This document shows, piece after piece, positions 4,828-54,226 of a stretch of 64,000 bases of DNA. How positions within the stretch are numbered: the first letter of the stretch is position 1; the number at the start of each line of letters is the position of its first letter. This DNA is from Bacteroides fragilis (GTDB lineage Bacteria; Bacteroidota; Bacteroidia; Bacteroidales; DTGW01). Both the position numbers and the translations under genes were made by a program. The notes beneath the pieces are model-generated. The model saw nothing but the letters and a program-made list of their open reading frames with translations. It was not told where the DNA came from and ran no database searches. The stretch covers positions 25,362 through 89,361 of the forward strand of contig CAMDBI010000015.1 in the NCBI GenBank assembly GCA_945889005.1, read 5' to 3'.

Positions 4828-4891
4828 AAAATTTTTAACATAGAAATAACAATTAAATTGTAAATATTTATTAACCTAAATTTCATCTATT

Positions 4892-5419: not shown

Positions 5420-5505
5420 TTCACTTTCATATTAATTGCAACCAAGTTTTCAGAACAAATACATTGTCTGAATAAATAAATTTTAAAATCAAAAAATCAA
5501 AAAAA

Positions 5506-6450: not shown

Positions 6451-6460
6451 AAAATAAAAC

Positions 6461-7435
6461 ATGAGAAAATTATTAATTATAGCACTTGCAGCATTGGTTT
6501 TACCAATGTTGCATGCCCAGAACAACGAAACGAAGGCCGATGACTATTCGCGCATAGCATTGCACTCGTACGTTCCAGAAATTGGCGAAATGCCAGCTGC
6601 TGCAAAAAATATATTGAAGAACAAGCTCGATCAGGTTGCTACCCAGTCGGGTGCTGGTGGAGGTTCTGCCAATCCTCGATTTGTAATTACTGCAAATATT
6701 ACAGTTTTGACTAAAGATATAACAGCCACAGCTCCTCCTATGACTGCACTTACACTAGATATTATGTTTTTTGTTGGCGATGCCCAAACTATGACCAAAT
6801 ATGCAAGTGCATCGATTCAAGCAAAAGGTGTTGGAGCAAACGAAACAAAGGCATATATTGAAGCTCTTAAAACTGTAAAAGCAGCTGCTCCCGAACTGAA
6901 AGTGATGGTCGAAACCGGCAAGAAAAAAATTGTAGAATATTACAATTCGCAATGCGATTTTATTTTGAAAAAAGCCGAATCGCTTGCAGCACAAAACCAA
7001 TACGGCGCAGCAATTTTTGAACTCAGTTCGGTTCCCGATGTTTGTAAAGAATGTTACTCACAAGCAATGGACGCTGTAACACCTATTTACAAAAAATATA
7101 GAGATCAGGTATGTGCTCAGAAATTGAATGAAGCAAAAACAGCTTGGGCTGGGGCTCAAAATGCCGAAGGTGCAGCAAAAGCATCAACTATACTTAAAGA
7201 TATTGATCCGGAAGCAGCATGTGTTCCCGATGTTAATACTTTTGTAAGTGAAGTAAAAGCCAAAGTTCTCGAACTCGAAAAACGCGACTGGGACTTTGCT
7301 ATGAAGGTATTCGATACTTCTGTTGATATCGAAAAACAACGCATTGAAGCTGCTCGTGAAGTTGGTGTTGAATTTGGTAAAAACCAACCCGAAACAGTTT
7401 ATAAAATGGATGCTTGGTTTGGTGGTGCGAAATAA
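6461..7435 (+). CDS. Uncharacterised secreted protein
   Basis: Signal peptide MRKLLIIALAALVLPMLHAQ; 10-bp gap from preceding gene; beta-rich N-terminus followed by helical repeat-like region. Confidence 0.6.
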   Translation: MRKLLIIALAALVLPMLHAQNNETKADDYSRIALHSYVPEIGEMPAAAKNILKNKLDQVATQSGAGGGSANPRFVITANITVLTKDITATAPPMTALTLDIMFFVGDAQTMTKYASASIQAKGVGANETKAYIEALKTVKAAAPELKVMVETGKKKIVEYYNSQCDFILKKAESLAAQNQYGAAIFELSSVPDVCKECYSQAMDAVTPIYKKYRDQVCAQKLNEAKTAWAGAQNAEGAAKASTILKDIDPEAACVPDVNTFVSEVKAKVLELEKRDWDFAMKVFDTSVDIEKQRIEAAREVGVEFGKNQPETVYKMDAWFGGAK

Positions 7436-7454
7436 ACATTTAATTTAACCAAAT

Positions 7455-7500
7455 AAAAAAAACCGATGTCCCCAATCTAGATGGGCATCGGTTTTTTTTA
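7455..7500. terminator. Bidirectional intrinsic terminator
   Basis: aaaaaaaaccgatgtcccc...gggcatcggttttttt: GC-containing stem flanked by A-tract and T-tract. Confidence 0.8.
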
Positions 7501-7504
7501 TATT

Positions 7505-7826
7505 TTAACGCTTCTTACTCCCCGAATTTTCGAAATGCTCGAATGGGCATGAATAAACTCTTAAAACTTCAATTTGTTCATTAGTGATGCGATAGATAAT
7601 GAGGTGTGAATCAAGTTATATTTCTGTAAATGCGACTTTTTGTAGGAATATGACGACATTCGGGATATAAGAGGTAATTGTCGTTTAAATTGTATGTTAA
7701 AGTCAATATTCGTTTTTTGTGTTCTTCAGCTGCACGAAGTCCGAAAGTTTCAACACCGTATTCAAAAATACTCCGAATATCCAATTCAATATTAGAACTT
7801 AGCAGTACCCTTTTTCTTGTTTCCAT
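7505..7826 (-). pseudogene. RelE/ParE-type toxin with +1 frameshift
   Basis: METRKRVLLSSNIELDIRSIFEYGVETFGLRAAEEHKKRILTLTYNLNDNYLLYPECRHIPTKSRIYRNI then stop at 7611; removing one A from AATATAACTTGATTC restores NILDSHLIIYRITNEQIEVLRVYSCPFEHFENSGSKKR* ending at 7505. Confidence 0.75.
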
Positions 7827-8014
7827 TTATCAAAGCGACTTTCAAATTCATCAATTGTATAAAATGGTCCCTTTTCAGCTTCTTTAATTCCTGCAATAAA
7901 CTCTTCATGAGTAAGCTTAACACCAGGACGTGTCCAGTTTTTTTCTTTTGTTGTCGCAGTTTTCATTTCAGAACTTTTTTTCAAAATTAATTCTTTGTTA
8001 TCAAAAATTTTCAT
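7799..8014 (-). CDS. Putative antitoxin of ParE-type TA pair
   Basis: Small 71-aa ORF directly upstream of and overlapping (28 nt) the ParE-like gene; sequence ...THEEFIAGIKEAEKGPFYTIDEFESRFDKWKQ. Confidence 0.65.
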   Translation of the reverse strand: MKIFDNKELILKKSSEMKTATTKEKNWTRPGVKLTHEEFIAGIKEAEKGPFYTIDEFESRFDKWKQEKGYC

Positions 8015-8035
8015 TTTACGATCGGAATCATAAAC

Positions 8036-8082
8036 AAAAAAGCCACTATTCTCTCGGTAATAATGAGAATAGTGGCTTCATG
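8036..8082 (-). terminator. Intrinsic terminator for the minus-strand operon
   Basis: Perfect 12-bp stem gccactattctc / gagaatagtggc (8042-8053, 8065-8076); T-tract on the minus strand. Confidence 0.8.
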
Positions 8083-8097
8083 TTTTTTATTAAGAAA

Positions 8098-9375
8098 CTA
8101 CCAACTTGTTTTTAATGCCTGATTAAAAATTTTGTAAGTTAAACCTTCGCCAGTAATCGATTTATACTGTAATGTACCCGAAATGGTTCCTTTCTTGGTC
8201 GATGTGGTCTTGTCTTTGGGCAATGCTTGCGAGATATCGACCGATAGCAGTTGATTTCCTTTACCTTGAAATTGGAGACCAATATTGTCGACTACTACAG
8301 GAGGACAATTGTCGAAATTTAATGTAAGTTTTTCGATACTTACCGGACTATCGTATTTCGAAACGAGCGTTATATTGCATTTTGCACCACTAATACTGGT
8401 ACCATCGTCGGTACCACCGCTCAATACAATGGCTTCTTTAATAAACACCTCTGCTTTATTGGCATTGATATCGAAATTAAAATTTTTCTTAGCATTGGGG
8501 CTAAATGGGTAAGCAACAGTAATGGCATTGCTAGGATCGTCGTAACATGCTGAATAGTTGTATGTAATTACCCATTCGGTCTGGTTATTTTGAATGTCGG
8601 TAACAGTAGCACATTTAGAAGTCACCTTTGGATTGGTTGCAGTAACAATAGTTTTATCGCCAATTTTTAAAGAATATTTAAGCACTCCAATTTTATTGTC
8701 GACTTGAGCAAACACAATAGAATTGAGCATTTGCTGAAGGGCATTGATTCCCTGATTTGCTTTTTCTTTACGTTGATCGAGAAAGGCTTTTGAAAAACCT
8801 TGCATTGAAGCAATGTAACGGGTAATTTGCTCAACCGATGTAATACTGTTGATACTATCGAGTATGTCATTCATTTCTTCGGTAAGTTGCTTGTCGGCCA
8901 TATCGAAATCGATCACCATTTTTTTGAGCTCCATTTCGCTAAATGGGTACTTAATACTGTAATAATATTTAAGTGTTCCATCTTTTTCCTTAACTTTTTC
9001 CCAATAATACTCGGTAACGTTGCTCAACGATATTCCTTTAATAAAGCCAATCTCAGCCGATTTGGTTTTGGTCGATGTTTCGAAATTTTCGATAAAGTTC
9101 GATACTCCATTAACCGACTGTTCGTTGCGGTAATACTCGCTCGATGTTTGTACATTTTCGGCAATAGAGGTTATAATTCGCTCTTTAACACGCAACAAGG
9201 CATTTTGCTGAGCTCCTTCAACAGTTTCGCTCGAACCTGAAGCAATAATAAAGTCCTTTTCAATTCCATTGACCCAGTCGGGTTTTTTGCCACTTTTATC
9301 AAGCACTTTTTGAGCCAAAACCGTAACTTGCCCTATAATTAGAAGACTTATTAAAATATTGATAAACTTTTTCAT
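8098..9375 (-). CDS. LPP20-like exported protein
   Basis: Signal peptide MKKFINILISLLIIGQVTVLAQ; KKPDWVNGIEKDFIIASGSSETVEGAQQNALLRVKERIITSIAENVQ resembles LPP20-family N-terminal pattern (PxWV..GxG...A...AL). Confidence 0.6.
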   Translation of the reverse strand: MKKFINILISLLIIGQVTVLAQKVLDKSGKKPDWVNGIEKDFIIASGSSETVEGAQQNALLRVKERIITSIAENVQTSSEYYRNEQSVNGVSNFIENFETSTKTKSAEIGFIKGISLSNVTEYYWEKVKEKDGTLKYYYSIKYPFSEMELKKMVIDFDMADKQLTEEMNDILDSINSITSVEQITRYIASMQGFSKAFLDQRKEKANQGINALQQMLNSIVFAQVDNKIGVLKYSLKIGDKTIVTATNPKVTSKCATVTDIQNNQTEWVITYNYSACYDDPSNAITVAYPFSPNAKKNFNFDINANKAEVFIKEAIVLSGGTDDGTSISGAKCNITLVSKYDSPVSIEKLTLNFDNCPPVVVDNIGLQFQGKGNQLLSVDISQALPKDKTTSTKKGTISGTLQYKSITGEGLTYKIFNQALKTSW

Positions 9376-9417
9376 AGAAGTATTTTTTTAAATTTTCAGA
9401 TTTTTAATTTGTATATT

Positions 9418-9966
9418 TTATTCGAGTTTTTTCATTTCGGCATCAAATATTTCTTTGAATTTTGCCTGATCGTAATCGACTTTTAGCTTATTGTCTTGCA
9501 GAATGCTGTTGTTGAGTTGCTCAAACAACAACTCCTTTGGCATTTCAATGGCTGTAAAAGTTTCGAACATTCCATCCTTATTTTTGTTTGAAGTTTGACA
9601 TGTAATGGTAATGAAACGAAGTTGTTGGTTTACAAACTCGTTGGTGAGGTTGTCGAACGATTGCATAAACCCATCAACTTTAGATGTTTCGATGCTTTTC
9701 GAAAAATTGTTGGAAACCGATTTGATGGTTGAGCCAATGAGCGACGAAAGTAATTGTTTGGTAACTAACATCGATTTGTCTTTTGAACTAATTTGACTGC
9801 TGCTTTTGGCCGAGCTTGCTGCTCTGAAATATTGCGAATCGGAGCGCCCCTTGTCCATACAAGGTACTGTAATTTCTTTTTCTTTGGGTTTTGCAGCTGT
9901 TACTAATTGGCTTTCAGACATTACCAAAAATGCTAAACAAATATAAAGTTTAATATATTTCATCAT
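9418..9966 (-). CDS. Exported protein, possibly LPP20-like
   Basis: Signal peptide MMKYIKLYICLAFLVMSESQLVTA; GRSDSQYFRAASSAKSSSQISSKDKSMLVTKQLLSSLI; upstream of 8098 gene on same strand. Start could be 9987 or 9966. Confidence 0.5.
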   Translation of the reverse strand: MMKYIKLYICLAFLVMSESQLVTAAKPKEKEITVPCMDKGRSDSQYFRAASSAKSSSQISSKDKSMLVTKQLLSSLIGSTIKSVSNNFSKSIETSKVDGFMQSFDNLTNEFVNQQLRFITITCQTSNKNKDGMFETFTAIEMPKELLFEQLNNSILQDNKLKVDYDQAKFKEIFDAEMKKLE

Positions 9967-10071
9967 AGGAGTTGATATTTTAAACAAATATAAAAATTAT
10001 TTAGATGCAAGGGTTCAAAGTCCTCAATATTTTGTTTTCTTTGCCATTTAATTGATTTTATAAACAAAGTT

Positions 10072-10320
10072 ATGAGAATATCTGTAGAAATAAGCTATTA
10101 CCCTCTGCTCGAGAAATATATTCCACCAATTAGAGATTTTATTGATCGACTGAATACATACAAGAATATTGATGTAAAAACAAGTGGAATAAGCACTCAC
10201 ATATTTGGCGAATATTCCGATGTAATGGGAATCCTTACCAAAGAGATAGAAAAATCGTTTGAAGTACCACATTCAATTTTTGTATTGAAAATACTAAATT
10301 CCGATAGGAGCGACTTTTAA
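10072..10320 (+). CDS. MTH1187/YkoF-like thiamine-binding protein
   Basis: MRISVEISYYPLLEKYIPPIRDFIDRL...VKTSGISTHIFGEYSDVMGILTKEIEKSF; matches small thiamine-binding family pattern. Confidence 0.7.
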   Translation: MRISVEISYYPLLEKYIPPIRDFIDRLNTYKNIDVKTSGISTHIFGEYSDVMGILTKEIEKSFEVPHSIFVLKILNSDRSDF

Positions 10321-10917
10321 ATGCTAATTAAATCGATAGATATTCAGTTTATTAGCGAGGTAGTTGCAACAATAACGGGACTTTTAGGAGTTTGGCTCAC
10401 ATCAAGACAAATAATTTGGTGTTGGCCGGTAGCCTTAATCAATGTATTGCTTTCGCTATATGTATTTTATGTTGCAAAGCTTTATCAAGATGCATTATTA
10501 CAAGTATTTTACTTGGTAATGACCTTATATGGTTGGTACAGCTGGTTATATGGAGGCTCCAACCATTCGAAACTCAAGGTATCTAAGCTAAAACAAAAAT
10601 GGCTCATTACTTATTTAATATCTGGAACATTACTGATGCTAGGTTCAGGCTACTTGTTTAGCAAATATACCGATGCAGCTATTCCGTATTGGGATGCAAG
10701 CTCTCTTGTTTTTGGTATTATTGGTACCATTTGGATGACCCGAAAGTGGGTTGAGCACTGGTTACTTTGGATTGTACTAGATATTATTTGTACCGGAATT
10801 TTCTTTTACAAAGAATTGTACTTCTTTACAGCTCAATATTTTATATTTAGCATTCTTGCATTTTATGGTTGGATTGAATGGAACAAAGAACTCAAAGCAT
10901 CGAAAATCGAATATTGA
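10321..10917 (+). CDS. pnuC: PnuC/PnuT-type vitamin transporter
   Basis: Multi-TM protein with TGLLGVWLTSRQIIWCWPVALINVLLSLYVFY..LYQDALLQVFYLVMTLYGWYSW and C-terminal YFIFSILAFYGWIEW, typical of the Pnu family. Confidence 0.88.
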   Translation: MLIKSIDIQFISEVVATITGLLGVWLTSRQIIWCWPVALINVLLSLYVFYVAKLYQDALLQVFYLVMTLYGWYSWLYGGSNHSKLKVSKLKQKWLITYLISGTLLMLGSGYLFSKYTDAAIPYWDASSLVFGIIGTIWMTRKWVEHWLLWIVLDIICTGIFFYKELYFFTAQYFIFSILAFYGWIEWNKELKASKIEY

Positions 10918-11450
10918 AAGTCGCGATTACCGGTCCCGAATCGACCGGCAAGAGTATGCTGGCTTCTGCTTTGGCTGAGTACTACGATACCTGCTACAAC
11001 CCCGAGTATGCCCGCGAGTACCTACAAAGCATTAATAGACAATATACATACGACGATGTTGTTCATATTGGTTTGAAACAAATGAACAGTGAATTGCAGA
11101 TGCTCCAGAAGGCAAACAAAGTGCTTTTTTGCGATACCGATTTGCTTGTAATAAAAACCTGGATGGATTTTAAATACCAAAAACACCCTAGATGGGTTGC
11201 AGATTGGATTATAAGCGGCGGTTACGATTTATTTATTCTTTGCAACATTGATATTCCTTGGGAACCCGATCCCTTGCGCGAACACCCCGAGGCACGGCAA
11301 GAGCTTTTTAATATTTATTACAACGAACTTAATAACAATTCACTAAACTTTATAATTGCTTCTGGTTCGCACCACGAACGTATGAAACAATCAACTCAGA
11401 CAATAAGCAATTTATTTGGTATTTTTAAGCAATCTATCAAATGCATATAA
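10878..11450 (+). CDS. NadR-like P-loop kinase (AAA_28)
   Basis: VAITGPESTGKSMLASALAEYYDTCYNPEYAREYL; CDTDLLVIKTW; WEPDPLREHPEAR; overlaps pnuC by 40 nt. Confidence 0.85.
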   Translation: MEQRTQSIENRILKVAITGPESTGKSMLASALAEYYDTCYNPEYAREYLQSINRQYTYDDVVHIGLKQMNSELQMLQKANKVLFCDTDLLVIKTWMDFKYQKHPRWVADWIISGGYDLFILCNIDIPWEPDPLREHPEARQELFNIYYNELNNNSLNFIIASGSHHERMKQSTQTISNLFGIFKQSIKCI

Positions 11451-11582
11451 AACACTAAATACCATGTATGTAATTTTGGTATTTTTTTTTTGAAAAATAT
11501 TTAGCCTTTCTAGTATTTTATTTAAAAATATTTAGTCTATCAAATCAAATTTGATTAATTTAATGTAAAAATATTTTCAATC

Positions 11583-12533
11583 ATGTTTTTCAAGAAAACC
11601 CCCGAATCTACACGAAAAGAGCTTGTTGCTTGGGCAAAAAAAAATAGAATAGACATCACTTATGTTCCTGAAGAACTCGAAAGTGTCACCAAACTTGATT
11701 TAAGTTATAAGAAAATGTCTCGATTGCCCAAACAAATCGAGTGTTTGGTAAACCTTCAGGAGTTGAACCTTTCAAACAATATGTTTTCAGATATTCCTTT
11801 TGAAATTAAAAAACTACCTAAACTTCGATCTTTAAATCTGTCTTTCAATAAATTTGCAGAAATACCGGGAGTTGTTTGCCAAATATCCAATTTGGAAGTT
11901 TTGAAAATTGAAGCCAATCAATTAAAAAAAGTTAACACAAATCTAGCCAACCTTAGCAATTTAAAAGAATTGAGTTTATTTGCCAATCAAATAATTGAGC
12001 TTCCAACAGAATTTGGTTCGCTCCAACAACTCATGAGGTTAAATCTTGCTCTAAATCAACTTTCTGCATTGCCCGAAAGTTTTTCGAAACTCCAAAATAT
12101 TGTTGAACTTGAGCTTTGGCTCAATAAATTTGAACTGATACCTGATGTAATATCCCAATTACCAAACTTAAAAGATTTTTACGACTCTGTAGATCCAGAG
12201 AGACTTAACAAAACACTACTTTGGGCGATAGTGGCAGACAATACCCACTTGGCCGAGAAGCTTATTTTTTATGGTGCCGATGTAAACTATATGCAAGAAG
12301 ATGAGGACGGTATCAACATAACTACTCCTTTATTTGAAGCTTGTAGTATAGATATGATCGACCTTTTGATTAAGAAAGGTGCCGATCCCGAATTTAAAAG
12401 AGAAATTGTAAAAATTGTTTCTACTAAAAATGGTGAAGAAGTTAGACCTACCGGAAAATTTGAAACTTTTTTAACAGTTAAACACCAAAATGAAATTGTT
12501 AAGTATCTAAAATCTATGAACTTAATAAAATAA
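11583..12533 (+). CDS. Leucine-rich repeat protein with C-terminal ankyrin-like repeats
   Basis: Repeated LxxLxxLxLxxNxLxxLP units, then DNTHLAEKLIFYGADVNYMQEDEDGINITTPLFEACSIDMIDLLIKKGADPEFK. Confidence 0.8.
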   Translation: MFFKKTPESTRKELVAWAKKNRIDITYVPEELESVTKLDLSYKKMSRLPKQIECLVNLQELNLSNNMFSDIPFEIKKLPKLRSLNLSFNKFAEIPGVVCQISNLEVLKIEANQLKKVNTNLANLSNLKELSLFANQIIELPTEFGSLQQLMRLNLALNQLSALPESFSKLQNIVELELWLNKFELIPDVISQLPNLKDFYDSVDPERLNKTLLWAIVADNTHLAEKLIFYGADVNYMQEDEDGINITTPLFEACSIDMIDLLIKKGADPEFKREIVKIVSTKNGEEVRPTGKFETFLTVKHQNEIVKYLKSMNLIK

Positions 12534-38877: not shown

Positions 38878-39270
38878 ATGCAATTAATGCAAACAATGGA
38901 AACAAAAAATAAGACAATTTTAGTCATAGACGATTCAACTACAAATGTAGTTTTACTTGAGGCAATATTTATTGAGAAGGGCTATTCAATAGACAAAGCA
39001 TTGAATGCAAAAGATGCATTTATGTTGATTGAAAAAAACACACCAGATTTAATACTTTTAGATTTATTAATGCCCCGATACAATGGATTTGATTTTCTGA
39101 AAGAAATTAAATCCAATAACAAAACTAACCAAATACCTGTAATTGTGATTTCAGCAGTAACAGATAATGATAATATAAAGAAAACAATGGAATTAGGTGC
39201 AAGTTATTTTTTAAAAAAACCTATCGACATACCCCATTTAGTAGAAATGGCTGAAAAAATTTTAAATTAA
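38878..39270 (+). CDS. Response regulator receiver protein
   Basis: ILVIDDSTTNVVLLEAIF; PDLILLDLLMPRYNGFDFL; PVIVISAV; FLKKPIDI. Confidence 0.92.
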   Translation: MQLMQTMETKNKTILVIDDSTTNVVLLEAIFIEKGYSIDKALNAKDAFMLIEKNTPDLILLDLLMPRYNGFDFLKEIKSNNKTNQIPVIVISAVTDNDNIKKTMELGASYFLKKPIDIPHLVEMAEKILN

Positions 39271-39282
39271 CCTTTTTATTTA

Positions 39283-41049
39283 TTGAGAATGACCCAAGCA
39301 GAAAAGGAAAAAAACTACATAGACACTCTACTCAACGCCATCTCCACCAACGATGCCATTGAGGTATTCAATTTAATAGATCATAAAATCATTAAATTAC
39401 TTGAATGCTCTACCGAAGATTTCATGTTGTTAAATGCTGAATTTAAAAATTATTTTAAAGATTATAAACACATTAATACCACAGCAAAAAACCTATCTGA
39501 AACATTCTCTAAACTTCTCAATGAAGAAACAATTGGTAAAGTAGACGCTAATTTTGACAATATTGAAGATCAGATTAAATCTCATATAGAGGGCTTACAA
39601 TTTAACCTCTCAATAATTAATACACTTACCCAAAAACACACAAATAACTTTCTTTTAATAAATAATATTAAACAAAATTTTTCGAGTCTCAAATTATTGA
39701 TTGCAAGCTTAAAACTAGGCGACACATCAAACCCAACCACTTCATCTACAATCGATACATCTATAAACGAAATAAAACTGACAATATCTTTACTCGAAAA
39801 CCAAAATGAAAAATTAAAAATTCAATTATCAGAAATAGTATCGAGTCTTAAATCGTTTCAATTAAAAGACCAGCAATCGGCAATAGAATTGGCGCACAAT
39901 AGCTTTTTACAAATAAAAGAAATATCTGTAAAAGCACCATCAATTACAGAATTAATTAAAGAATTTTCAAGTTCTTGTTCAACACGAATCGAGAAAATAA
40001 TTACCAATCTACAATACAATGATATTATTCGACAAAAAATTGAGCATATTCAACGATCGCACAAAGACATACTATGCGAACTAAACAATCTGATTGAAAA
40101 CGAAGGAAAACTTAGTATAATCCATAACAAAGTAAAAGTATTTTTTAAAATACGTGATATTGCAGGTTTACAAGCTGCCCAATTACTACATGCCAATTTA
40201 CAATATCAATCTGCCATTTCAGAAATAAACAGCGACTTAGATCTTATTGGTTCTGAAATGATTTCAATATCAAAACAAAGTAACTTACTTTTTAGTAATA
40301 ATAGCGACAATTTGCCCATAAATGATTTTCAAAAATCGCTCAATTCAATTTTACAACTAGTAAATACCGATTTAAAAATCGATTCATCAAGTATCTCAAA
40401 GCTCCATCTATCAATAGACGAATTTAATGAACAAATAAACAATGCAGTAAAAGCTATCAACGATTTAGCGATTATTATTCTTAATTATGTAGATAATGTT
40501 AAGAAAAAAGAAATAAGCCAAACCGACAAGAACAATTTAGATCTAATTTCCAATCTTATTAAAGAAATAAACCTTGCGGTCGTTCAAGTACCCATCTCAG
40601 ATGAACAAAAAATAATTGAATTAAAAGAATTTTCTTCAGGAATAAAAAAGAACCTAGACGAAACCATTCAATTTGTCAATAACCTAATAAAAGATACCCA
40701 ACCTTTATATATTGAAGAAAAAAACTTAATAGTTGGTGTTAGTCTCGAATTGAAGAGCTCAATAAAAAGAGTTAAATATTATGAACTATTTGAAGAGGTC
40801 TGCGACGATATTATAGATAAATTAAACCAATTGAATTTAAAATTAAATTATGGTCGCGAAATCGAAAGTCCTATAACTCGAGAAGAAAATTTGGCAAAGC
40901 TCAAATCGAGATATACCATGGAGAGCGAACATTTAATCCACGACCATTTGGCAAACAATATTGTTGATGTTACACAGTCTGAAGCAACACTTTTAGGATT
41001 AATTGAACAAAAAACAGACGAAGATGATGACAATTTAGAATTATTTTAA
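39283..41049 (+). CDS. Uncharacterised coiled-coil protein of chemotaxis cluster
   Basis: Long alpha-helical/coiled-coil composition; contains NLQYNDIIRQKIEHIQRSHKDI (40003-40068), resembling the LQFQDIIRQRIEHI-type helix of atypical chemotaxis proteins. Confidence 0.6.
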   Translation: MRMTQAEKEKNYIDTLLNAISTNDAIEVFNLIDHKIIKLLECSTEDFMLLNAEFKNYFKDYKHINTTAKNLSETFSKLLNEETIGKVDANFDNIEDQIKSHIEGLQFNLSIINTLTQKHTNNFLLINNIKQNFSSLKLLIASLKLGDTSNPTTSSTIDTSINEIKLTISLLENQNEKLKIQLSEIVSSLKSFQLKDQQSAIELAHNSFLQIKEISVKAPSITELIKEFSSSCSTRIEKIITNLQYNDIIRQKIEHIQRSHKDILCELNNLIENEGKLSIIHNKVKVFFKIRDIAGLQAAQLLHANLQYQSAISEINSDLDLIGSEMISISKQSNLLFSNNSDNLPINDFQKSLNSILQLVNTDLKIDSSSISKLHLSIDEFNEQINNAVKAINDLAIIILNYVDNVKKKEISQTDKNNLDLISNLIKEINLAVVQVPISDEQKIIELKEFSSGIKKNLDETIQFVNNLIKDTQPLYIEEKNLIVGVSLELKSSIKRVKYYELFEEVCDDIIDKLNQLNLKLNYGREIESPITREENLAKLKSRYTMESEHLIHDHLANNIVDVTQSEATLLGLIEQKTDEDDDNLELF

Positions 41050-41400: not shown

Positions 41401-41766
41401 ATGGCAAAAACAATTTTAATTGTAGACGACTCAGAAAGTATCAGAGAAGTAGTTAGTTTTACTTTAGAAAACGAAGGTTACAAGGTGCTTGTAGGAGTTG
41501 ATGGTAAAGATGCCCTTAAGTTTTTAACAGGCGATGAGATAGATTTAGTCATTACAGACCTTCATATGCCTGTAATGGATGGTATCGAGCTTATTAAAGA
41601 AATTAGAGCATTAGATAAATATTCGCGAGTGCCCATATTATTTTTAACAACCGAATCGCAGGCAGCTAAAAAAATAGAAGCCAAAGAAGCTGGAGCAACA
41701 GGATGGATTATCAAACCATTTGTTCCTGCAAAACTTATTGCAGCAATCAATAAAGTAATCCGTTAA
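41401..41766 (+). CDS. cheY: CheY-like response regulator
   Basis: TILIVDDSESIREVVSFTLENEGYKVLVG; DLVITDLHMPVMDGIELI; FLTTES; GWIIKPFVPAKL. Confidence 0.93.
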   Translation: MAKTILIVDDSESIREVVSFTLENEGYKVLVGVDGKDALKFLTGDEIDLVITDLHMPVMDGIELIKEIRALDKYSRVPILFLTTESQAAKKIEAKEAGATGWIIKPFVPAKLIAAINKVIR

Positions 41767-43847
41767 TGGAAAATTTTAAGCTTAAATTCATCGAAGAGGC
41801 TACCGAGCACATCAATGAACTTGAAAAAACATTGTTAGATCTTGAGAAATTTCCCAACGACAAACAACTCATTGAGAAGGTTTTTAGGGCAATGCATTCA
41901 CTTAAGGGAGGTGGAGCTATGTTTGGTTTCGATCAAATTAGCGAATATACTCACAACCTCGAATCATTGTACGATTATGTTCGTAATGGTCAAATGGAAC
42001 TAACCAAAAATCTTTTTGACGTTACATTGGCTTCTGTAGACCATTTAACAAATCTTTTAGACGAAAGTAAATCAGAAACTTCCGCTACTAAAAAAAGACA
42101 TAGTGAACTAACCTCTCAAATAGATGAAATAATTAAGCGAAAAAAAAGTGGATTACAAGAAGAAAAAAACAATTTAAAAACAGCCGTTACTGATATAGTT
42201 GAAATATCCGGTAAAGAAAAACAATCAACATATTATATACACTTTATACCTAATATTGATATTTTTGACAACGGAACAAACCCTTTGTTTTTGCTCGACG
42301 AACTTACCGCTCTTGGCAAAACCATTGTCATACCTAATATGTCTAAGGTTGAAGGATTTCATAGTTTAAATCCCTGTAACTGCTATACCAGTTGGGAAAT
42401 ATTTCTTTCCACAACTCACGATATTAATTCAATTACCGATATTTTTATTTTTGTTGAAGACGATTGCACCATAGATATCCACAAGCTTAGCGACACCAAT
42501 CTTTTAGATATTCCTTTATTTATTGAAAAAATAAATAGCCTACGAAGTGAAACAAAAGATATTGGAATAAATGAAATTGAACTTTTTATTGGGCAATTAA
42601 AAATTGTTACCCCAACTGTAGTAAAAGAAAAAAAACAAGAAGAAAAAAATCAAGGAGCCGCACCTAAAGAAAATATGATATCGAGTATCAGGGTTTCATC
42701 AGAAAAACTCGACAATCTTATGAATTTAGTAAGTGAACTTGTTACAACTCAGGCCCGCCTCACCATGTACGCCGAAAACGATAGCGCGCCCGAGCTAATA
42801 GCTATTGGAGAGAATGTTCAAAAACTATCGCGACAATTGCGCGACATTGCATTCAGCATAGTACTCATACCCATCGAAAACCTTTTAACACGTTTTCAAC
42901 GTTTGGTAAGAGATCTATCGCAAGAACTGAAAAAAGATGTCGTCTTCATTACCGAAGGTACAGATACCGAACTCGACAAAACTATCATTGAGAATCTTAC
43001 AGATCCTCTTATGCATATACTCCGAAATAGCCTCGACCATGGAATTGAATCGCCAGAAATACGAGAAAAACTTGGAAAGCCCAAACAAGGTACTATTACT
43101 TTAAAAGCATTTTACTCAGGAGCAAATGTACATATCCAAATTAGCGACGACGGTTCAGGAATTGACTCCGAAAAGGTTCGCCAGAAAGCAATTAGCAAAG
43201 GGCTAATATCGGCAGATACCATTTTAACTCAAAAAGAAATACTTGATATTATATTCCTGCCCGGATTTTCAACAGCTACCAATATAACCGATGTATCGGG
43301 TCGAGGTGTTGGAATGGATGTAGTTCGTCGAAAAATTGCAGATATTAGAGGCGAGGTCGAAATTGAATCGAAAGTTAAACATGGAACAACACTTACAATC
43401 AAACTACCTCTAACACTTTCTATTATTGATGGTTTGCAAGTTAAAGTGAATGATGTTTATTATATAATACCATTAACTTCGGTCGACAAAATATATGCTG
43501 CCGATCACAACAAAGTATATGGAACATTCAACAATCTTATAATACTCGATGGTCAACAATTGCCTTTTTTCTATTTACGCGACGAATTTGAAATAAACGA
43601 GAATACTATTGAAAATGAACAAATAGTTGTTGTCCGATACGAAGACAAACGTATTGGATTGGTTGTTGATAGTGTAGTTGGCGAATATCAGGCAGTTTTA
43701 AAGCCATTGGGAAAATATTATAAAAATCAAGAAATTATTTCAGGTGCAACCATTCTTGGCGATGGTACCATTGCTCTTGTTATAGATACCAATAAAGCAA
43801 TTAAATTCTTTTCACAAAAATACCTATCTTCGGAGGAAAAAAAATGA
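41766..43847 (+). CDS. cheA: Chemotaxis histidine kinase CheA
   Basis: HPt MHSLKGGGAMFGFDQI; SSIRVSSEKLDNLMNLVSELVTTQARL; HILRNSLDHGIESPEIREKLGKP; GRGVGMDVVRRKI; CheW-like C-terminus. Start overlaps cheY stop (TAATG). Confidence 0.95.
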   Translation: MENFKLKFIEEATEHINELEKTLLDLEKFPNDKQLIEKVFRAMHSLKGGGAMFGFDQISEYTHNLESLYDYVRNGQMELTKNLFDVTLASVDHLTNLLDESKSETSATKKRHSELTSQIDEIIKRKKSGLQEEKNNLKTAVTDIVEISGKEKQSTYYIHFIPNIDIFDNGTNPLFLLDELTALGKTIVIPNMSKVEGFHSLNPCNCYTSWEIFLSTTHDINSITDIFIFVEDDCTIDIHKLSDTNLLDIPLFIEKINSLRSETKDIGINEIELFIGQLKIVTPTVVKEKKQEEKNQGAAPKENMISSIRVSSEKLDNLMNLVSELVTTQARLTMYAENDSAPELIAIGENVQKLSRQLRDIAFSIVLIPIENLLTRFQRLVRDLSQELKKDVVFITEGTDTELDKTIIENLTDPLMHILRNSLDHGIESPEIREKLGKPKQGTITLKAFYSGANVHIQISDDGSGIDSEKVRQKAISKGLISADTILTQKEILDIIFLPGFSTATNITDVSGRGVGMDVVRRKIADIRGEVEIESKVKHGTTLTIKLPLTLSIIDGLQVKVNDVYYIIPLTSVDKIYAADHNKVYGTFNNLIILDGQQLPFFYLRDEFEINENTIENEQIVVVRYEDKRIGLVVDSVVGEYQAVLKPLGKYYKNQEIISGATILGDGTIALVIDTNKAIKFFSQKYLSSEEKK

Positions 43848-46754: not shown

Positions 46755-47609
46755 ATGTCTCTCGATAGATTAAATGAAATCTTTAAGGCAAAACTTTCAA
46801 ACGAAGACTTTGACCGTTTGAGTAATTTTATTTACAGCGAATATGGGATAAAAATGCCTCCTATAAAAAAGGTGATGTTGCAAAGTCGGTTACAGAAAAG
46901 ATTAAGAGATCTCAATATAGTTTCATTTAAAGATTATGTCGATTTTGTATTTAGCAAAGAAGGTCAGGACAATGAAGTTATTCACATGATAGATGTGGTA
47001 AGTACCAATAAAACCGACTTTTTTAGAGAGCCCATACATTTCGATTTTTTAACCAACGAAGGTTTGCCCGAAATGTTGCAAAATCAAAACCACACCTTAA
47101 CCAAAATATGGAGTGCCGGATGTTCAAGTGGTGAAGAACCATATACAATATCAATAGTTATGCAAGAATTTAAGGAAAAAAATCCAGGCTTCGATTTTTC
47201 AATTTTTGCAACTGATATTTCTAGTCGAATATTACGATCGGCCGTTGAAGCAATTTATAAAGAAAATAGAGTTGAAAATTTACCCCTTAGCATAAAACGC
47301 AAATATTTTTTAAAAAGTAAGGATCGAGACAACCCAACTGTAAGAGTAATTCCTGAATTGAGAAAAAAAATATCATTCCAGCGACTCAATTTTATGGACA
47401 ATTCATATAATGTACCCGATCAATATGATATTGTTTTTTGCCGAAATGTACTTATTTATTTCGACCGAGAAACCCAAGAAAAAGTAATTTCAAAATTATG
47501 TTCAAAATTAAAAGTCGGAGGTTTCTTTTTCCTAGGTCACTCAGAATCAATTACAAATATGCAGTTACCATTAAAACAAATAAAACCAACAATATTTAGA
47601 AGAATATAA
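46755..47609 (+). CDS. cheR: Chemotaxis protein methyltransferase CheR
   Basis: IWSAGCSSGEEPYTISIVMQEF; FATDISSRILRSAVEAIY; YDIVFCRNVLIYFDRETQEKVI; FLGHSESI. Confidence 0.95.
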   Translation: MSLDRLNEIFKAKLSNEDFDRLSNFIYSEYGIKMPPIKKVMLQSRLQKRLRDLNIVSFKDYVDFVFSKEGQDNEVIHMIDVVSTNKTDFFREPIHFDFLTNEGLPEMLQNQNHTLTKIWSAGCSSGEEPYTISIVMQEFKEKNPGFDFSIFATDISSRILRSAVEAIYKENRVENLPLSIKRKYFLKSKDRDNPTVRVIPELRKKISFQRLNFMDNSYNVPDQYDIVFCRNVLIYFDRETQEKVISKLCSKLKVGGFFFLGHSESITNMQLPLKQIKPTIFRRI

Positions 47610-47663: not shown

Positions 47664-48563
47664 ATGAGCAAACTAAGCGACCTTGACTTAATAGAAGAGC
47701 TGCAAAAACGGTTCGATGAAAACAGTAAAACGATTCAGGAATTAAAGGAGTTAACAGACGAATTAAAACATGTTAATAAAAAACTTGAGGAATCGGAAGC
47801 ACTAAAAAGTCACTTTATTTCGAATATTACCAACGAAATTATCAATCCATTTACCTCAATTTTAGGATTGTCGAGAAGTATATTAGCCGTTAAAAAAGAA
47901 GATTGGAAACGTGTAATTTCAATGGTTGCACTTATTCACTCAGAAGCATTTAATCTCGATTTTCAGTTGCGGAATATATTTGTAGCAGCAAAAATTGAAG
48001 CAGGAGAAATTTATCCTGAAATAATAAATGTTGACCTCGAAAATTTGGTTCGAAGTGTTATAGAAGCATTTAAGATAGAAGCCAAAAAGAAAAATATTGA
48101 ACTTGAATTTTACTTCGATTTAATACCTGAAAAAAACAGTATATACTATTTCAAAACCGATCCCGAAAAATTAAAGATCGCCTTAGCAAATTTATTGAGC
48201 AATTCAATAAAATATAGTTTGGAAGATCAGAAAGTAATTGTAAGATTGTGGAAGTCAACTGACGATAATATTAACTTTTCGGTACAAGACTTTGGACAAG
48301 GAATTTCGGATGCCAACCAGAAAATAATTTTTGATCGATTTAAACGTCTCGACTCTGGAATAAACTCGCTGAACCGCGGACATGGATTGGGCTTGTCGAT
48401 CAATAAAGCTGTAATAGATTTATTACAAGGTACTATTGATGTAAAAAGCGAACTAGGAAAAGGAGCAACCTTTACACTGTCAATACCAGAAGCAAAAAAC
48501 AATATTGCCGGCTTCTCAGCAGACGGAAATGAGTTTATTTTTGATGAGGATGAAGTATTTTAA
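47664..48563 (+). CDS. Histidine kinase-like protein lacking the canonical H-box histidine
   Basis: Coiled coil, degenerate H-box SHFISNITNEIINPFTSILGLS (N replaces H), intact HATPase motifs NLLSNSIKYS, DFGQGI, GHGLGLSINKAV. Confidence 0.85.
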   Translation: MSKLSDLDLIEELQKRFDENSKTIQELKELTDELKHVNKKLEESEALKSHFISNITNEIINPFTSILGLSRSILAVKKEDWKRVISMVALIHSEAFNLDFQLRNIFVAAKIEAGEIYPEIINVDLENLVRSVIEAFKIEAKKKNIELEFYFDLIPEKNSIYYFKTDPEKLKIALANLLSNSIKYSLEDQKVIVRLWKSTDDNINFSVQDFGQGISDANQKIIFDRFKRLDSGINSLNRGHGLGLSINKAVIDLLQGTIDVKSELGKGATFTLSIPEAKNNIAGFSADGNEFIFDEDEVF

Positions 48564-48577
48564 TACTTGCCGGTAAT

Positions 48578-49057
48578 ATGGAAGAAAATAAAAACGTACA
48601 TTTTTTATATCCTGCAGCATTGTTTACCAGCTCATCTCCATATATGGTCACCACCATACTTGGTTCATGTGTTGCTGTATGCTTGCACGATCCGGTTCTA
48701 AAAATCGGCGGAATCAATCACTATATGTTGCCTTTATGGAATGGTCAAGGACTTGCCTCTCCCAAATATGGAAATATAGCCATTGAAAAATTGCTTGAGA
48801 AAATGATTTCGATGGGAGCAAAAAAAGAAAATTTAATTGCAAAAGTATTTGGCGGAGGAGAAGTAATCGAAACCAATATTACAAATTTTAATATTGGAGC
48901 AAGAAATATAAAAATTGCTCACGAATCGTTAGAAGAGCGTCATATAAAAATTATAGGCTCAAGTGTAGGAGGAAAACTCGGCAGAAAAATCCTTTACAAT
49001 ACTGAAACAGGAGAGGTTAAACAAAAATTTATACAAAAAACTAATTTAGGAGATTAA
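48578..49057 (+). CDS. cheD: Chemoreceptor glutamine deamidase CheD
   Basis: TTILGSCVAVCLHDPVLKIGGINHYMLP; GAKKENLIAKVFGGGEVI; NIGARNIKIAHESLEERHIKIIGSSVGGKLGRKI. Confidence 0.93.
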   Translation: MEENKNVHFLYPAALFTSSSPYMVTTILGSCVAVCLHDPVLKIGGINHYMLPLWNGQGLASPKYGNIAIEKLLEKMISMGAKKENLIAKVFGGGEVIETNITNFNIGARNIKIAHESLEERHIKIIGSSVGGKLGRKILYNTETGEVKQKFIQKTNLGD

Positions 49058-49130: not shown

Positions 49131-50219
49131 ATGAAAAAAATAAAAGTACTCATAGTAGACGATTCTGCTGTTGTAAGACAGACATTGACAAGTATTCTTG
49201 AAACCGATTCACAACTAGAGGTTATGGGTTCGGCATCTGATCCTTTTTTTGCAGCAAAGAAAATTCAAACCGAGGTTCCAGATGTAATTACCTTAGATAT
49301 CGAAATGCCTCGAATGGATGGATTAACATTTCTAAGAAAAATAATGTCGCAACACCCTATACCTGTTGTAGTTATTTCGAGCTTAACTGCCGAAGGAACA
49401 GAAACTGGTATGAAAGCACTTGAATATGGAGCGGTTGAAATAATTACCAAACCACAAATGAACACTAAACAGTTCATTGAAGAGTCGCGAATACGAATAT
49501 GCGATGCCGTAAAAGCAGCAGCACAATCAAAAATAAAAAGAAAAAACTACACAACCTCTGAAATAGTTGTGCCACCTAAGCTTTCAGCAGATGCGGTTAT
49601 TCCAAATGTAAAGACAGATTATAGCATGATAAAAACCACCGAGTCGGTGGTTGCAGTTGGAGCATCGACCGGAGGAACAGATGCCCTCCAGGTATTTTTA
49701 CAAGCCATGCCTCCCGATTGCCCAGGAATAATAATTGTTCAACACATGCCCGAATTTTTTACAAAATCGTTTGCCAATCGATTGAACGAACTTTGCAGCA
49801 TATCGGTAAAAGAAGCCGAGAATGGCGATACAGTAATTCGCGGGCAAGCATTAATAGCCCCTGGCAATCATCATATGTTGCTCAAACGAAGTGGAGCACG
49901 TTATTATGTTGAAGTAAAAGACGGCCCCCTTGTCAATAGGCACCGGCCATCTGTCGATGTTCTTTTTAGGTCAACAGCCCGTTATGCCGGGAAAAATGCC
50001 TTAGGAGTCATAATGACCGGAATGGGCGACGATGGAGCAAAAGGATTGCTCGAAATGAAAGAGGCAGGAGCTCATACAGTTGCGCAGGACGAAAAATCGT
50101 GTGTTGTTTTTGGAATGCCAAATGAAGCCATCAAATTGGGTGCAGCAGACAAAATACTCCCACTAGATGCAATTGCTAATCATGTAGTTAGAATGGTTTC
50201 TCAAAAGGTTCTTCAATAA
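49131..50219 (+). CDS. cheB: Chemotaxis methylesterase CheB
   Basis: Receiver domain [18 protein letters not shown]...[20 protein letters not shown] plus [48 protein letters not shown]. Confidence 0.95.
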
Positions 50220-50310: not shown

Positions 50311-52596
50311 ATGATTAGTTTAAATTCAGATAATGTAAAGCTCTCATTTACCATTAGAGGAATATTAGTTGGAATTTCACTATATGTGATAATATGGCTC
50401 ATAGAGTCGTTACAACATAATATATTATTTTCCTTTTCCAGCCTGTTGTACCTTCACAAAAACATTTCAAGTTTTTGGATTATTGATCTTTTGCCGTTAA
50501 TTCTAGGATTATTTGGGTATTTAATTACAAATTACTTTTTAAGCAAGACTGAAAATATAAAATTTGCCCTCGAAAACGAACAAAAAAACACAAATAAAGT
50601 CTTTGAATTTGTAAATGAACTCATTAAAGACAATACAGATGCAAACTTCGATATAAAAGACATCAATGACAAATTGGGACAATCTTTAGTAACACTTAAA
50701 GACAATCTAAATAATCAGAAAAAAGATGCTACTTGGCGTAAAAAAGAAGACGATCAACGCAACTGGACATCAGAAGGTTTAGCAAAATTTGGTGAAATAC
50801 TTAGAAATGACAATGATGATATTGGGCAATTTTCGCACAACATACTCATATATTTAATTAAGTATATAGGAGCCAACCAGGCCGGATTTTTCATAGTCAA
50901 TTCTGACGATTACGACAATAAATATTTCGAACAAACAGCGTCGTTTGCCTACGATCGGAAGAAATTTTTTGACAAACGAATAGAATGGGGCGAAGGACTC
51001 ATTGGAACATGTGCTCTGGAACGAAAAACCATAGCATTGAAAAATGTACCTGAAAACTACGTTTCTGTAACTTCGGGATTAGGAAAGGCAACACCGAAGT
51101 TCTTATTGATTGTTCCAATGATATTTAACGACGATATACATGGAGTAATTGAGTTTGCTTCATTTAACACCTTTGAAAAATATCAAATAGATTTTATCGA
51201 AAAAATAGCAGAAAGTACAGCCTCAACTTTAGCTGGTATAAAAATAAATATTACAACCTCTCGCTTGCTTAAAGAATCGCGCGAACAAGCCGAAATTCTT
51301 GCTCAACAAGAAGAGCAAATGAGGCAAAACATGGAGGAACTCAAACTTACTCAAGAAGATGCAGCTCGTCAATCGGAAAAATTTATCAGTTTTACAAATT
51401 CTGTAAATCATACACTAATAAGAGCAGAATACCTGACCGATGGAACATTGATATATGCCAATACCAAATTTTTGGCTAAACTAGGTTATACTAGCAATAT
51501 GGAAGTTGAAGGAAAACATATATCCATGTTTATCAACAAAAAAGACCGCGAGTGGTTCGAGCCAATTTGGGAAGACCTTGCAAATGGAGGAAAACACTTT
51601 GAAGGGTATATGAAACATGTTACTAAACAAGGTCTTGATCTTTGGACCATGTCGACATATACATGTATAAGAAAAGAAGAAGGATCTGTTGAGAAAATAT
51701 TGTTTCTAGCAATAGATACCACAGAACAAAAAATGCAAAGTCTCGACTACGAAGGTCAGATAGCTGCATTAGAAAAATCGACCATAAAAGTCGAGATTCA
51801 ACCTGAAGCAAAGATTCTATCGGCGAATGATCTTTTTTATAATACGATAAAATATACCGATCGAGAATTGGTTGGTAAAAAATGGTTAGACATTCTTACA
51901 CGCGACGAAGTCGATACCTTTAAACAACAATGGAAAGAAATAATTAATGGCAAACCATATATGTGCCAAATTCAAGTGGTTGACAAAACCAATGAAATAA
52001 TTTGGCTAAGAGGAACTTTTTCGGCTGTTAGCGATATGTATGGCGATGTTGCAAAAGTGATTTTTATCGCTACCGATGTTACCAAAGAACGCTTGATGGA
52101 AATGGAAGCCTCGCGCCAAAACGATCAATTAAAAATACAGGAAGAAAAATTACGTCAGGCAGGCGAAGAGCTTACAAAAAAACTTGAAGTAACTCGCGAA
52201 GAAATGAAAATTCAATTTAAAGAAATTGAGAAAATTAAAATTCGAAACGAGCGTACCTTAGAAGGCGCCTTAGATGCCATTATTACAACAAACGAAGCCG
52301 GCACTATAGAATTTTTCAATAAGGCAGCCGAAGAACTTTGGGGTATAGACAGAAAAGACGCTATTGGTAACAATATAAGTTCATTATTTTCGGACGACAC
52401 TATTAAAAACGATGAATTTGTTGCAAGATATGTTGCTCCAGGGCCTAACAAAGATGTAGGAATGCGAAAGGAAATAAATATTAAAGATAATAACGGGGAA
52501 GAAAAACCAGTCTTAATCCTACTTTCTGTTGCAGAGGTAAATGATGAATATAATTTTACTGCTTTTATTCAAAATATTGAGGTCGAGTTGTTTTAA
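50311..52596 (+). CDS. Membrane GAF/PAS multi-sensor protein without kinase domain
   Basis: Two TM segments, GAF-like WGEGLIGTCALERKTIALKNVPENYVSVTSGLGKATPKFLLIVPM, three PAS-like domains; ends after the last PAS. Confidence 0.8.
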   Translation: MISLNSDNVKLSFTIRGILVGISLYVIIWLIESLQHNILFSFSSLLYLHKNISSFWIIDLLPLILGLFGYLITNYFLSKTENIKFALENEQKNTNKVFEFVNELIKDNTDANFDIKDINDKLGQSLVTLKDNLNNQKKDATWRKKEDDQRNWTSEGLAKFGEILRNDNDDIGQFSHNILIYLIKYIGANQAGFFIVNSDDYDNKYFEQTASFAYDRKKFFDKRIEWGEGLIGTCALERKTIALKNVPENYVSVTSGLGKATPKFLLIVPMIFNDDIHGVIEFASFNTFEKYQIDFIEKIAESTASTLAGIKINITTSRLLKESREQAEILAQQEEQMRQNMEELKLTQEDAARQSEKFISFTNSVNHTLIRAEYLTDGTLIYANTKFLAKLGYTSNMEVEGKHISMFINKKDREWFEPIWEDLANGGKHFEGYMKHVTKQGLDLWTMSTYTCIRKEEGSVEKILFLAIDTTEQKMQSLDYEGQIAALEKSTIKVEIQPEAKILSANDLFYNTIKYTDRELVGKKWLDILTRDEVDTFKQQWKEIINGKPYMCQIQVVDKTNEIIWLRGTFSAVSDMYGDVAKVIFIATDVTKERLMEMEASRQNDQLKIQEEKLRQAGEELTKKLEVTREEMKIQFKEIEKIKIRNERTLEGALDAIITTNEAGTIEFFNKAAEELWGIDRKDAIGNNISSLFSDDTIKNDEFVARYVAPGPNKDVGMRKEINIKDNNGEEKPVLILLSVAEVNDEYNFTAFIQNIEVELF

Positions 52597-52663: not shown

Positions 52664-54226
52664 ATGCCCTCGAGACAACCCCTCACTTCCATTGAAGAAT
52701 TAATGGGAAATAAAATTGCTCAACAATTAATCGATTTCGGAATTTGGAAAATAAAATCTGATTCCACACAAGTCTATTTTTCCGACAAAGCACTTAAAAT
52801 TCTAGATTCAGATTTATTGGAAGGCATCTATAATGCAGAATCGCTCCGATCGATAAGTGGAAACGACGATTTGGTAAAAATATTTAACCCGTCATTCATT
52901 GAATCAGATATGCATACCGATTCAATCATTGAGGTTAAAATCTGTTATGAAAAAAATTCCATAAAAAATTACAAGTATTTTCTATTAAATTTTAGAAAAA
53001 TTGAAGAAAATCAAAAAATAGAATTTATTGGTTCAATAAGAGATATTAGTCTTCAAAAGAAAAATGAAAACGAGCTTATTAAAGCAAAAGAAAAGATCGA
53101 AGAATCTGACAAATTGAAAACAGCATTCTTATCTAATATCTCACATGAAATTCGCACTCCAATGAATTCAATTCTTGGCTTTATAGAATTGATGAATATT
53201 GGGGGGCTCAATGAAGAAAATAGAATTGAATACCTGAAAATAATAAAAAACAAAAGTAGACAATTACTCTCATATATCGACGATATTATAGAACTTAACA
53301 AATTAGAATATGGCGAAGCTACCATAAATAAGTCGATGACCAATGTGGTTAAACTGCTAGCTGAAATGTATAATGAGATAAATAATGAAAAAATCGCCCA
53401 AAATAAAAGTGCCATTGATATATTCTTAAATATTCCAACCAATAGTTACGATTTTAGTCATGTATATGTAGATTCTGGAAGATTACATCAAGTAATTAAA
53501 ATTCTACTTACAAACGCACTTTCCAATACAGATAAGGGATACATTCAAATTGGTATAGAGCTGAAAGATTCAAAGCATATTTTGTTTTATATAAAAGATA
53601 CTGGAAATGGATATTCGAAAGAAGAACAGAAAAATATTTTCAACCAATTGAAAATACTTGATACGAATGTAAAATCGAAAATTAGTTGCAACCTTAGCCT
53701 ATTGATTGCCAAAAGAATAATTGAAAATATTGATGGAAGATTGCATATTGAATCTGTTCAAAATGAAGGCTCAACATTTTCAATTACCATTCCCTTTATA
53801 AAACAAGAAAAACCAATAGCAGAAAAAAACGCAGAAACAGCAGGACAAAAAAAATATAACTGGAAAGACAAACTTGTGCTAATTGCCGAAGACGAAGATG
53901 ATAATTTTAAATTTTTGGAAGCAATACTTGACGACACTAAGGTTAAACTTATCCATGTATATAATGGCCATCAAGCAGTGGAAATATTTAAGTCGATACA
54001 TCATATCGATCTAATTTTGATGGATATAAGAATGCCTGAAATGAATGGTTACGATGCTGTAAGAGAAATAAAACGAATAGATGCATCGATACCAATAATT
54101 GCCCAAACAGCATTTGCATTGAAAGAGGAACAGATTAAATGTTTGGAAGCCGGATGCAACGATTATTTATCGAAACCAATAGAAATTGAACTTTTGCTCA
54201 ATAAAATGGCACAATATCTATGTTAG
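52664..54226 (+). CDS. Hybrid sensor histidine kinase/response regulator
   Basis: FLSNISHEIRTPMNSILGFIEL H-box, HATPase-like region, receiver LVLIAEDEDDNFKFLEAIL...LILMDIRMPEMNGYDAV. Confidence 0.92.
   Translation: MPSRQPLTSIEELMGNKIAQQLIDFGIWKIKSDSTQVYFSDKALKILDSDLLEGIYNAESLRSISGNDDLVKIFNPSFIESDMHTDSIIEVKICYEKNSIKNYKYFLLNFRKIEENQKIEFIGSIRDISLQKKNENELIKAKEKIEESDKLKTAFLSNISHEIRTPMNSILGFIELMNIGGLNEENRIEYLKIIKNKSRQLLSYIDDIIELNKLEYGEATINKSMTNVVKLLAEMYNEINNEKIAQNKSAIDIFLNIPTNSYDFSHVYVDSGRLHQVIKILLTNALSNTDKGYIQIGIELKDSKHILFYIKDTGNGYSKEEQKNIFNQLKILDTNVKSKISCNLSLLIAKRIIENIDGRLHIESVQNEGSTFSITIPFIKQEKPIAEKNAETAGQKKYNWKDKLVLIAEDEDDNFKFLEAILDDTKVKLIHVYNGHQAVEIFKSIHHIDLILMDIRMPEMNGYDAVREIKRIDASIPIIAQTAFALKEEQIKCLEAGCNDYLSKPIEIELLLNKMAQYLC

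Follow-up and report, generated by a model that had tools for sequence, protein, structure and literature searches.

Histidine kinases of the HisKA type are bifunctional, and the separation of their kinase and phosphatase roles is an old question. In the chemotaxis system of Bacillus subtilis, the CheC-CheD pair couples phosphatase activity to receptor adaptation. Phosphatase activity of HisKA proteins is carried by the residue four positions past the phospho-accepting His (H+4), CrdS being a case in point, and the corresponding box of NtrB and CrdS reads HEIKNP (PMC3510030). The H+4 Asn of CrdS is needed exclusively for the phosphatase reaction: N375A abolishes it, and N375T, Thr being inferior to Asn, is partially functional with 50% of CrdA~P left, while E372 is required for the kinase and not for the phosphatase reaction (PMC3510030). 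CrdA~P has a half-life of 53.5 min without CrdS, 0.7 min with the wild type and 2.6 min with CrdS H371A, which retains the greater part of the activity; PleC loses its phosphatase activity on loss of the His (PMC3510030). ADP stimulates the phosphatase activity of HK853 and EnvZ, probably through ordering of the CA domain (PMC7005713), and WalK relies on its acidic tail to bind the receiver and to act efficiently as a phosphatase (PMC9087282).

Natural loss of the phospho-accepting His, conserved through a lineage, is known from DivL of Caulobacter. DivL has the dimeric histidine kinase fold with Tyr in place of the His, carries PAS sensors, binds ATP weakly, can dispense with its CA domain and acts in cell-cycle control; it binds DivK~P with neither kinase nor phosphatase activity and even protects it (PMC4211667). 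The pseudokinase ChrS is reported to heterodimerise with HrrS (PMC9491836). In Rhodobacter sphaeroides, CheY6 is dephosphorylated by CheA3, a histidine kinase derivative which belongs to a split CheA with a His domain plus a special phosphatase domain (PMC6829392). The protein described below is a natural pseudo-histidine kinase whose place in chemotaxis is undescribed as far as the searched papers go, and no described family with all of its features was found in them.

The che cluster and the pHK gene

The window, a stretch of 64,000 nucleotides from a member of the Bacteroidales, contains a chemotaxis (che) cluster with a His-less HisKA/HATPase gene, here termed pHK (Table 1). The working kinase of the cluster is CheA, because it has Hpt and all kinase domains, and pHK is an extra. 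A first-pass annotation had described pHK as a kinase-like protein between CheR and CheD with Asn for the phospho-accepting His. The reading frame, its coordinates and the Asn codon at residue 57 (AAC, 47832-47834) are exactly as claimed there; cheR and cheD flank the gene, cheD following after a gap of 14 bp. Residue 57 lies in the box F-I-S-N-I-T-N-E-I-I-N-P-F, in the context SHFISNITNEIINPFTSI.

Table 1. Features of the che cluster and of pHK (positions are those of the window).
Feature	Position	Strand	Basis
Receiver gene	38878-39270	+	
588-aa coiled-coil protein, QYxDIIxQ conserved (CheZ-like DxxxQ); possible second CheY-P phosphatase	39283..41049	+	
STAS-like protein	starts 41080	+	
cheY, best candidate substrate, 56-84% identical across mapped clusters	41401..41766	+	
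cheA, domains Hpt, dimerisation, HATPase and CheW; working kinase of the cluster	41766..43847	+	Pfam
CheW	starts 43844	+	
MCP	starts 44514, C-terminus at 46727	+	
cheR, directly upstream of pHK in 61 loci	46755..47609	+	Pfam
pHK, His-less HisKA/HATPase protein, 299 aa	47664..48563	+	translation, Pfam, 74 orthologues, tree
pHK N-terminal long helix/coiled coil into DHp helix 1, residues about 4-47	47673..47804	+	AF2 helix 6-75
pHK N57-E-I-I-N61-P62 motif: Asn for phospho-acceptor His, Asn at the H+4 phosphatase position	47832..47849	+	orthologue alignment
pHK remodelled DHp helix 2, residues 94-114 (family-specific E94, A95, D99, Q101, N104, F106, A108)	47943..48005	+	orthologue and canonical-kinase comparison
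pHK HATPase_c (CA) domain, residues 166-277; N, G1, F and G2 boxes intact	48159..48494	+	Pfam; orthologue conservation
pHK acidic C-terminal tail GFSxDGNEFxFD..E[IV]F, conserved, predicted disordered	48510..48560	+	alignment; pLDDT<50 at 282-299
cheD, nearly always the pHK-adjacent partner	48578..49057	+	Pfam CheD 2.5e-27
cheB	49131..50219	+	translation; conserved order CheR-pHK-CheD-CheB
GAF/PAS protein, 761 aa, conserved in clusters, no recognised output domain, ends VELF	50311-52596	+	
PAS-HisKA-HATPase-REC kinase with normal SHEIRTP	52664-54226	+	

The Pfam scan finds HATPase_c (E 4.5e-24), and the N, G1 and G2 boxes are intact, as had been noted, with an F box in addition. HisKA stays below the cut-off in the pHK of the window (E 0.01, 16.3 vs 26.9 bits) and is recovered at E<=1 in 25 of 26 aligned family members. 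The same scan recognises no further domain in pHK, i.e. no sensor domain, no PAS and none of CheC (PF04509), CheX (PF13690) and CheZ (PF04344).

The AF2 model (mean pLDDT 80) consists of a single long helix, the DHp hairpin, the CA domain and a disordered tail. It possesses the HisKA superfamily fold of DHp hairpin plus CA (Foldseek E 4.5e-21 to 6rh0), and the profile match of pHK to HK853 has an E of 8e-41. Closest to the model are the HK853-RR468 complexes (TM 0.69/0.86, rmsd 2.5-2.9 A), compared with an rmsd of 6.4 A to free HK853 (2c2a); DivL is the third-best fold match. The closer fit to receiver-bound HK853 lends mild support to a phosphatase role, and it is only mild because such complexes are likely in the AF2 training data.

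Conservation at the phospho-acceptor site

Orthologues were sought in the own genome, in 60 relatives, in 295 genomes of the order and in a genome collection; 74 distinct ones were found, ranging down to about 40% identity. The first-pass annotation had named orthologues with His at residue 57 as evidence against its claim; the alignment contains Asn in 74/74 and His in 0/74. N61 and P62 are equally invariant (74/74) and E58 is present in 73/74. Canonical kinase segments aligned from the own and related genomes have the His in 46 of 46 cases, and at H+4 Thr is found in 41 of the 42 canonical kinases compared, vs invariant Asn in pHK. In a quick tree of 45 pHK proteins and 42 canonical kinases, a branch with SH-aLRT 99 sets the former apart from the latter. 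The T-to-N exchange at H+4 and the remodelled DHp helix 2 had escaped the first-pass annotation.

Loss of a catalytic residue is a frequent first step of decay. Sequencing error, annotation artefact, decay and chance are ruled out for pHK by the intact frame, by Asn in every orthologue across deep divergence and by the single clade, and conserved neighbours, ATP site and C-terminal tail likewise speak against a non-functional or artefactual gene; the orthologue data refute this reading, to which we give practically no credence.

pHK could also be an active kinase with another acceptor (H50, or one in helix 2) or one that phosphorylates CheD or another protein. Conservation of E58 and of the entire CA domain would fit this, and H50, the only conserved His near the site, two helical turns ahead of N57, is His in 65/74 orthologues. 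Yet it is Asn in the other 9/74, comparison with canonical kinases reveals no other invariant His in the DHp region, and the H+4 change indicates phosphatase chemistry, all of which makes such a kinase very improbable. Since H50 is replaced in nine orthologues, it was dropped as alternative acceptor, and His phosphorylation elsewhere in pHK appears unlikely.

The ATP site is kept throughout the family, with N176, N180 and G211 in 74/74 orthologues and G239, G241 and G243 in 73/73 ungapped ones. Residues near-invariant in pHK and rare in canonical kinases (E45, S53, N57, N61, I73, E94, A95, D99, F100, Q101, N104, F106 and A108) are all located within the DHp region, with none in the CA domain. 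Because the family-specific residues are confined in this way, loss of the phospho-acceptor appears to be accompanied by a concerted remodelling of the predicted receiver-docking helices, with nucleotide binding putatively retained. The comparison supports pHK as a protein with an ATP-binding site and without phospho-acceptor, predicted to be kinase-dead. To that extent it bears out the ATP-binding regulatory pseudokinase, unable to autophosphorylate at residue 57, of the first-pass annotation, which stopped short of the phosphatase motif and of the partnership with CheD.

Phosphatase and receiver-binding readings

Judged by its residues, pHK lacks the one required for the kinase reaction, has Asn, the superior of the two phosphatase residues, as a fixed state and retains the nucleotide site. 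The kinase/phosphatases HK853, CrdS and NtrB share with pHK the fold, the DHp-CA order, the ATP-site boxes and the E-x-x-N-P of the phosphatase motif, but pHK differs from them by the absence of the phospho-His in all orthologues, by its own helix 2 residues, by the absence of a sensor domain and by the sub-threshold HisKA of the window protein. The reading we favour, to which we assign a little less than an even chance, is that pHK acts as a phosphatase on a chemotaxis receiver and is coupled to CheD. In this reading pHK would be a nucleotide-gated phosphatase, or at least a phospho-receiver binder, whose work with CheD is much like that of CheC. It would probably turn the chemotaxis signal off rather than on.

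We infer receiver binding, phosphatase activity, nucleotide gating and a physical interaction with CheD in the following manner. The kinase half-reaction would be lost, which would leave phosphorylated response regulators of the chemosensory pathway as the sole targets of pHK, CheY-P being the most likely one and CheB-P a possible one. Its DHp hairpin would dock the receiver domain, and N61, the T/N of the HisKA H-E/D-x-x-T/N motif, aided by N57 in place of the His, would position the attacking water on the phospho-aspartate. ATP or ADP bound to the intact CA domain would serve to lock a docking-competent state and not for phosphorylation; stimulation by ADP would account for the strict conservation of the ATP site in a protein that has no phospho-acceptor. 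The acidic tail and the near-invariable pairing with cheD may link this activity to the receptor-adaptation module. The tail resembles that of WalK (disordered, acidic, with an aromatic residue, behind the CA domain; PMC9087282), but its motif is FxFD..E[IV]F where WalK has W-acidic, and its role is putative.

Several observations stand against the phosphatase reading. The His of HK853 contributes to phosphatase activity, which is diminished in H260A, and PleC depends on its His for this activity. DivL, of the natural pseudo-histidine kinases the one studied best, is no phosphatase and protects DivK~P. E58, the counterpart of the kinase-only residue of CrdS, is moreover kept in all orthologues except one, which a pure phosphatase leaves unexplained. 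Therefore some CA-to-DHp chemistry or a two-residue ExxN site may matter. An ExxN signature is also quoted for CheX (PMC3510030) and resembles the E-x-x-N of pHK. CheC, CheX and CheZ, together with the CheC-CheD pair, are comparable to pHK in the expected role, the chemotaxis operon and the cheD partner, but have an unrelated fold. CheA3 matches the favoured reading as a kinase-derived protein that dephosphorylates a CheY; unlike CheA3, pHK is of the HisKA type and has no phospho-His.

The main rival is a DivL-like sensor, in which pHK binds phospho-CheY or another phospho-receiver without hydrolysis and passes this state allosterically to CheD/CheB/CheR or to CheA, so that phosphorylation feeds back on adaptation. 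DivL has the same architecture, the invariant remodelled helix 2 (E94, D99, F100, Q101, N104) resembles a new interface, and the pairing with CheD and the rank of DivL among the fold matches fit as well. DivL, however, differs in its Tyr, in its weak ATP binding and dispensable CA domain where pHK retains every ATP-site residue, and in the PAS domains that tune its binding and that pHK lacks; furthermore, the T-to-N exchange at the phosphatase position is not obviously needed by a pure binder. We regard such a sensor as possible, though doubtful.

Distribution and companions of pHK

cheD is located immediately downstream of pHK in 70 of 72 testable loci (of 74 orthologues), including a locus labelled Nitrospirae. 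The usual order is CheR-pHK-CheD-CheB, with cheR immediately upstream in 61 loci. In eight other loci, cheR and pHK are separated by an inserted gene or genes for a receiver and/or a hybrid kinase: a hybrid kinase in L033, L074, L086, L133 and L143, and a receiver in L038, L128 and one more. The five former loci contain a receiver plus the hybrid kinase, and the His is normal where read.

Such insertions fit a hetero-oligomer, in which pHK pairs with a canonical kinase, e.g. the PAS-HK-REC protein of the window or a neighbouring hybrid kinase, and inhibits, activates or trans-phosphorylates it. The intact CA domain and the ChrS/HrrS pairing agree with this, and RetS/GacS and RocA/CovS are similar cases. 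Most loci, however, contain no kinase gene beside pHK, the Nitrospirae-labelled unit has cheD only, and no kinase was found whose association with pHK is as strict as that of CheD, so that we consider this pairing unlikely.

CheA (PF02895) is present in 18 of 60 related genomes, the own one included. pHK occurs in 17 of these 18 and in 0 of the 42 genomes without CheA (P 4.6e-14 by simple counting, which ignores shared ancestry). The sole CheA-bearing relative without pHK possesses a cheY-cheA pair (G045, locus L088); the 20 kb read there contain neither cheR nor cheB nor cheD. Pfam detects CheC in 0/60, CheZ in 0/60 and CheX in 1/60 related genomes, with control genomes positive, and none of the three in the own genome. 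As FliM is absent from 60/60 genomes and no genome reaches the PilT cut-off, the chemosensory system is one without flagella or evident type IV pilus; by inference, its output is likely gliding. With four genes for CheA and about 14 for MCPs, the own genome is richly equipped for chemosensing, but has neither FliM nor PilT.

A phylum-wide search of 297 genomes, few of this order among those listed, returned one match, the own genome, whereas the order-wide search yielded clear members in about 68 of 295 genomes (counted at E<1e-60). Plasmids gave no match and viral contigs no pHK, only a distant kinase at 32% identity. One match lies outside the order, on a MAG contig labelled Nitrospirae (L037) with the order dnaA-dnaN-pHK-cheD-gyrB-gyrA, the pair within 3537-12247 (NCBIfam models). 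This pHK retains SNFLSNIRNEINNP and the C-terminal tail DGFSSDGNEFIFDDDEGEKF, the G+C content of the pair equals that of dnaN (0.46 each), and no other che genes are recognised in the 12.9-kb stretch. The isolated pair without other che genes, on this one MAG contig, suggests that pHK and CheD form a unit.

More tentatively, pHK may represent an undescribed family, a phosphatase-only, nucleotide-gated CheY-P enzyme that takes the place of CheC beside CheD in Bacteroidales without flagella and spreads to other phyla together with cheD as one unit; we hold this full version to be possible, well short of an even chance. If true, it would provide an off-switch for Bacteroidales chemosensory systems without CheC or Pfam-recognised CheZ, and a new CheD partner through which the phosphorylation of response regulators is tied to receptor adaptation in non-flagellated cells. 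A natural lineage fixed in H-to-N and in T-to-N at the phosphatase site would be a ready-made evolutionary experiment.

That pHK fills an empty CheZ/CheC/CheX niche is weakened as a stand-alone argument by the 588-aa protein of the cluster. Its QYxDII[RK]Q core, invariant in 10/10 orthologues, resembles the CheZ active site AxxF(Y)Q-DxxxQ (PMC7750401), the segment compared in E. coli CheZ being QDFQDLTGQ. The protein has no Pfam match, and neither PDB sequence searches nor profile methods link it to CheZ. From its motif, the 588-aa protein is a possible remote CheZ analogue of Bacteroidales, and with a CheZ-like DxxxQ present, a CheY-P phosphatase vacancy is therefore not certain. Were the 588-aa protein such an analogue, pHK would be an adaptation-linked second phosphatase, for which CheC beside FliY in B. 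subtilis is a precedent, or would act on another receiver.

Four unrelated families of the cluster tend to end in [E/D]-x-F-COOH, namely the 588-aa protein (..ELF), the MCP (..YERF), pHK (..E[IV]F) and the GAF/PAS protein (..VELF), with C-termini in the window at 41049, 46727, 48563 and 52596. The ending occurs in 43 of 56 members of these families vs 1 of 332 other ORFs (ORFs >=100 aa in the loci), which suggests a common docking partner. The C-terminus of E. coli CheZ, ..LLDSLGF, binds CheY. Receptor pentapeptides of a similar kind (NWETF, acidic with terminal F) serve as tethers for CheR/CheB, and Bacteroidetes have them in abundance (PMC7390727). By analogy, docking of the pentapeptide or CheZ-tail kind would bring pHK to the machinery of signalling or of adaptation. 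About five of 14 MCPs of the own genome end alike, in F or Y.
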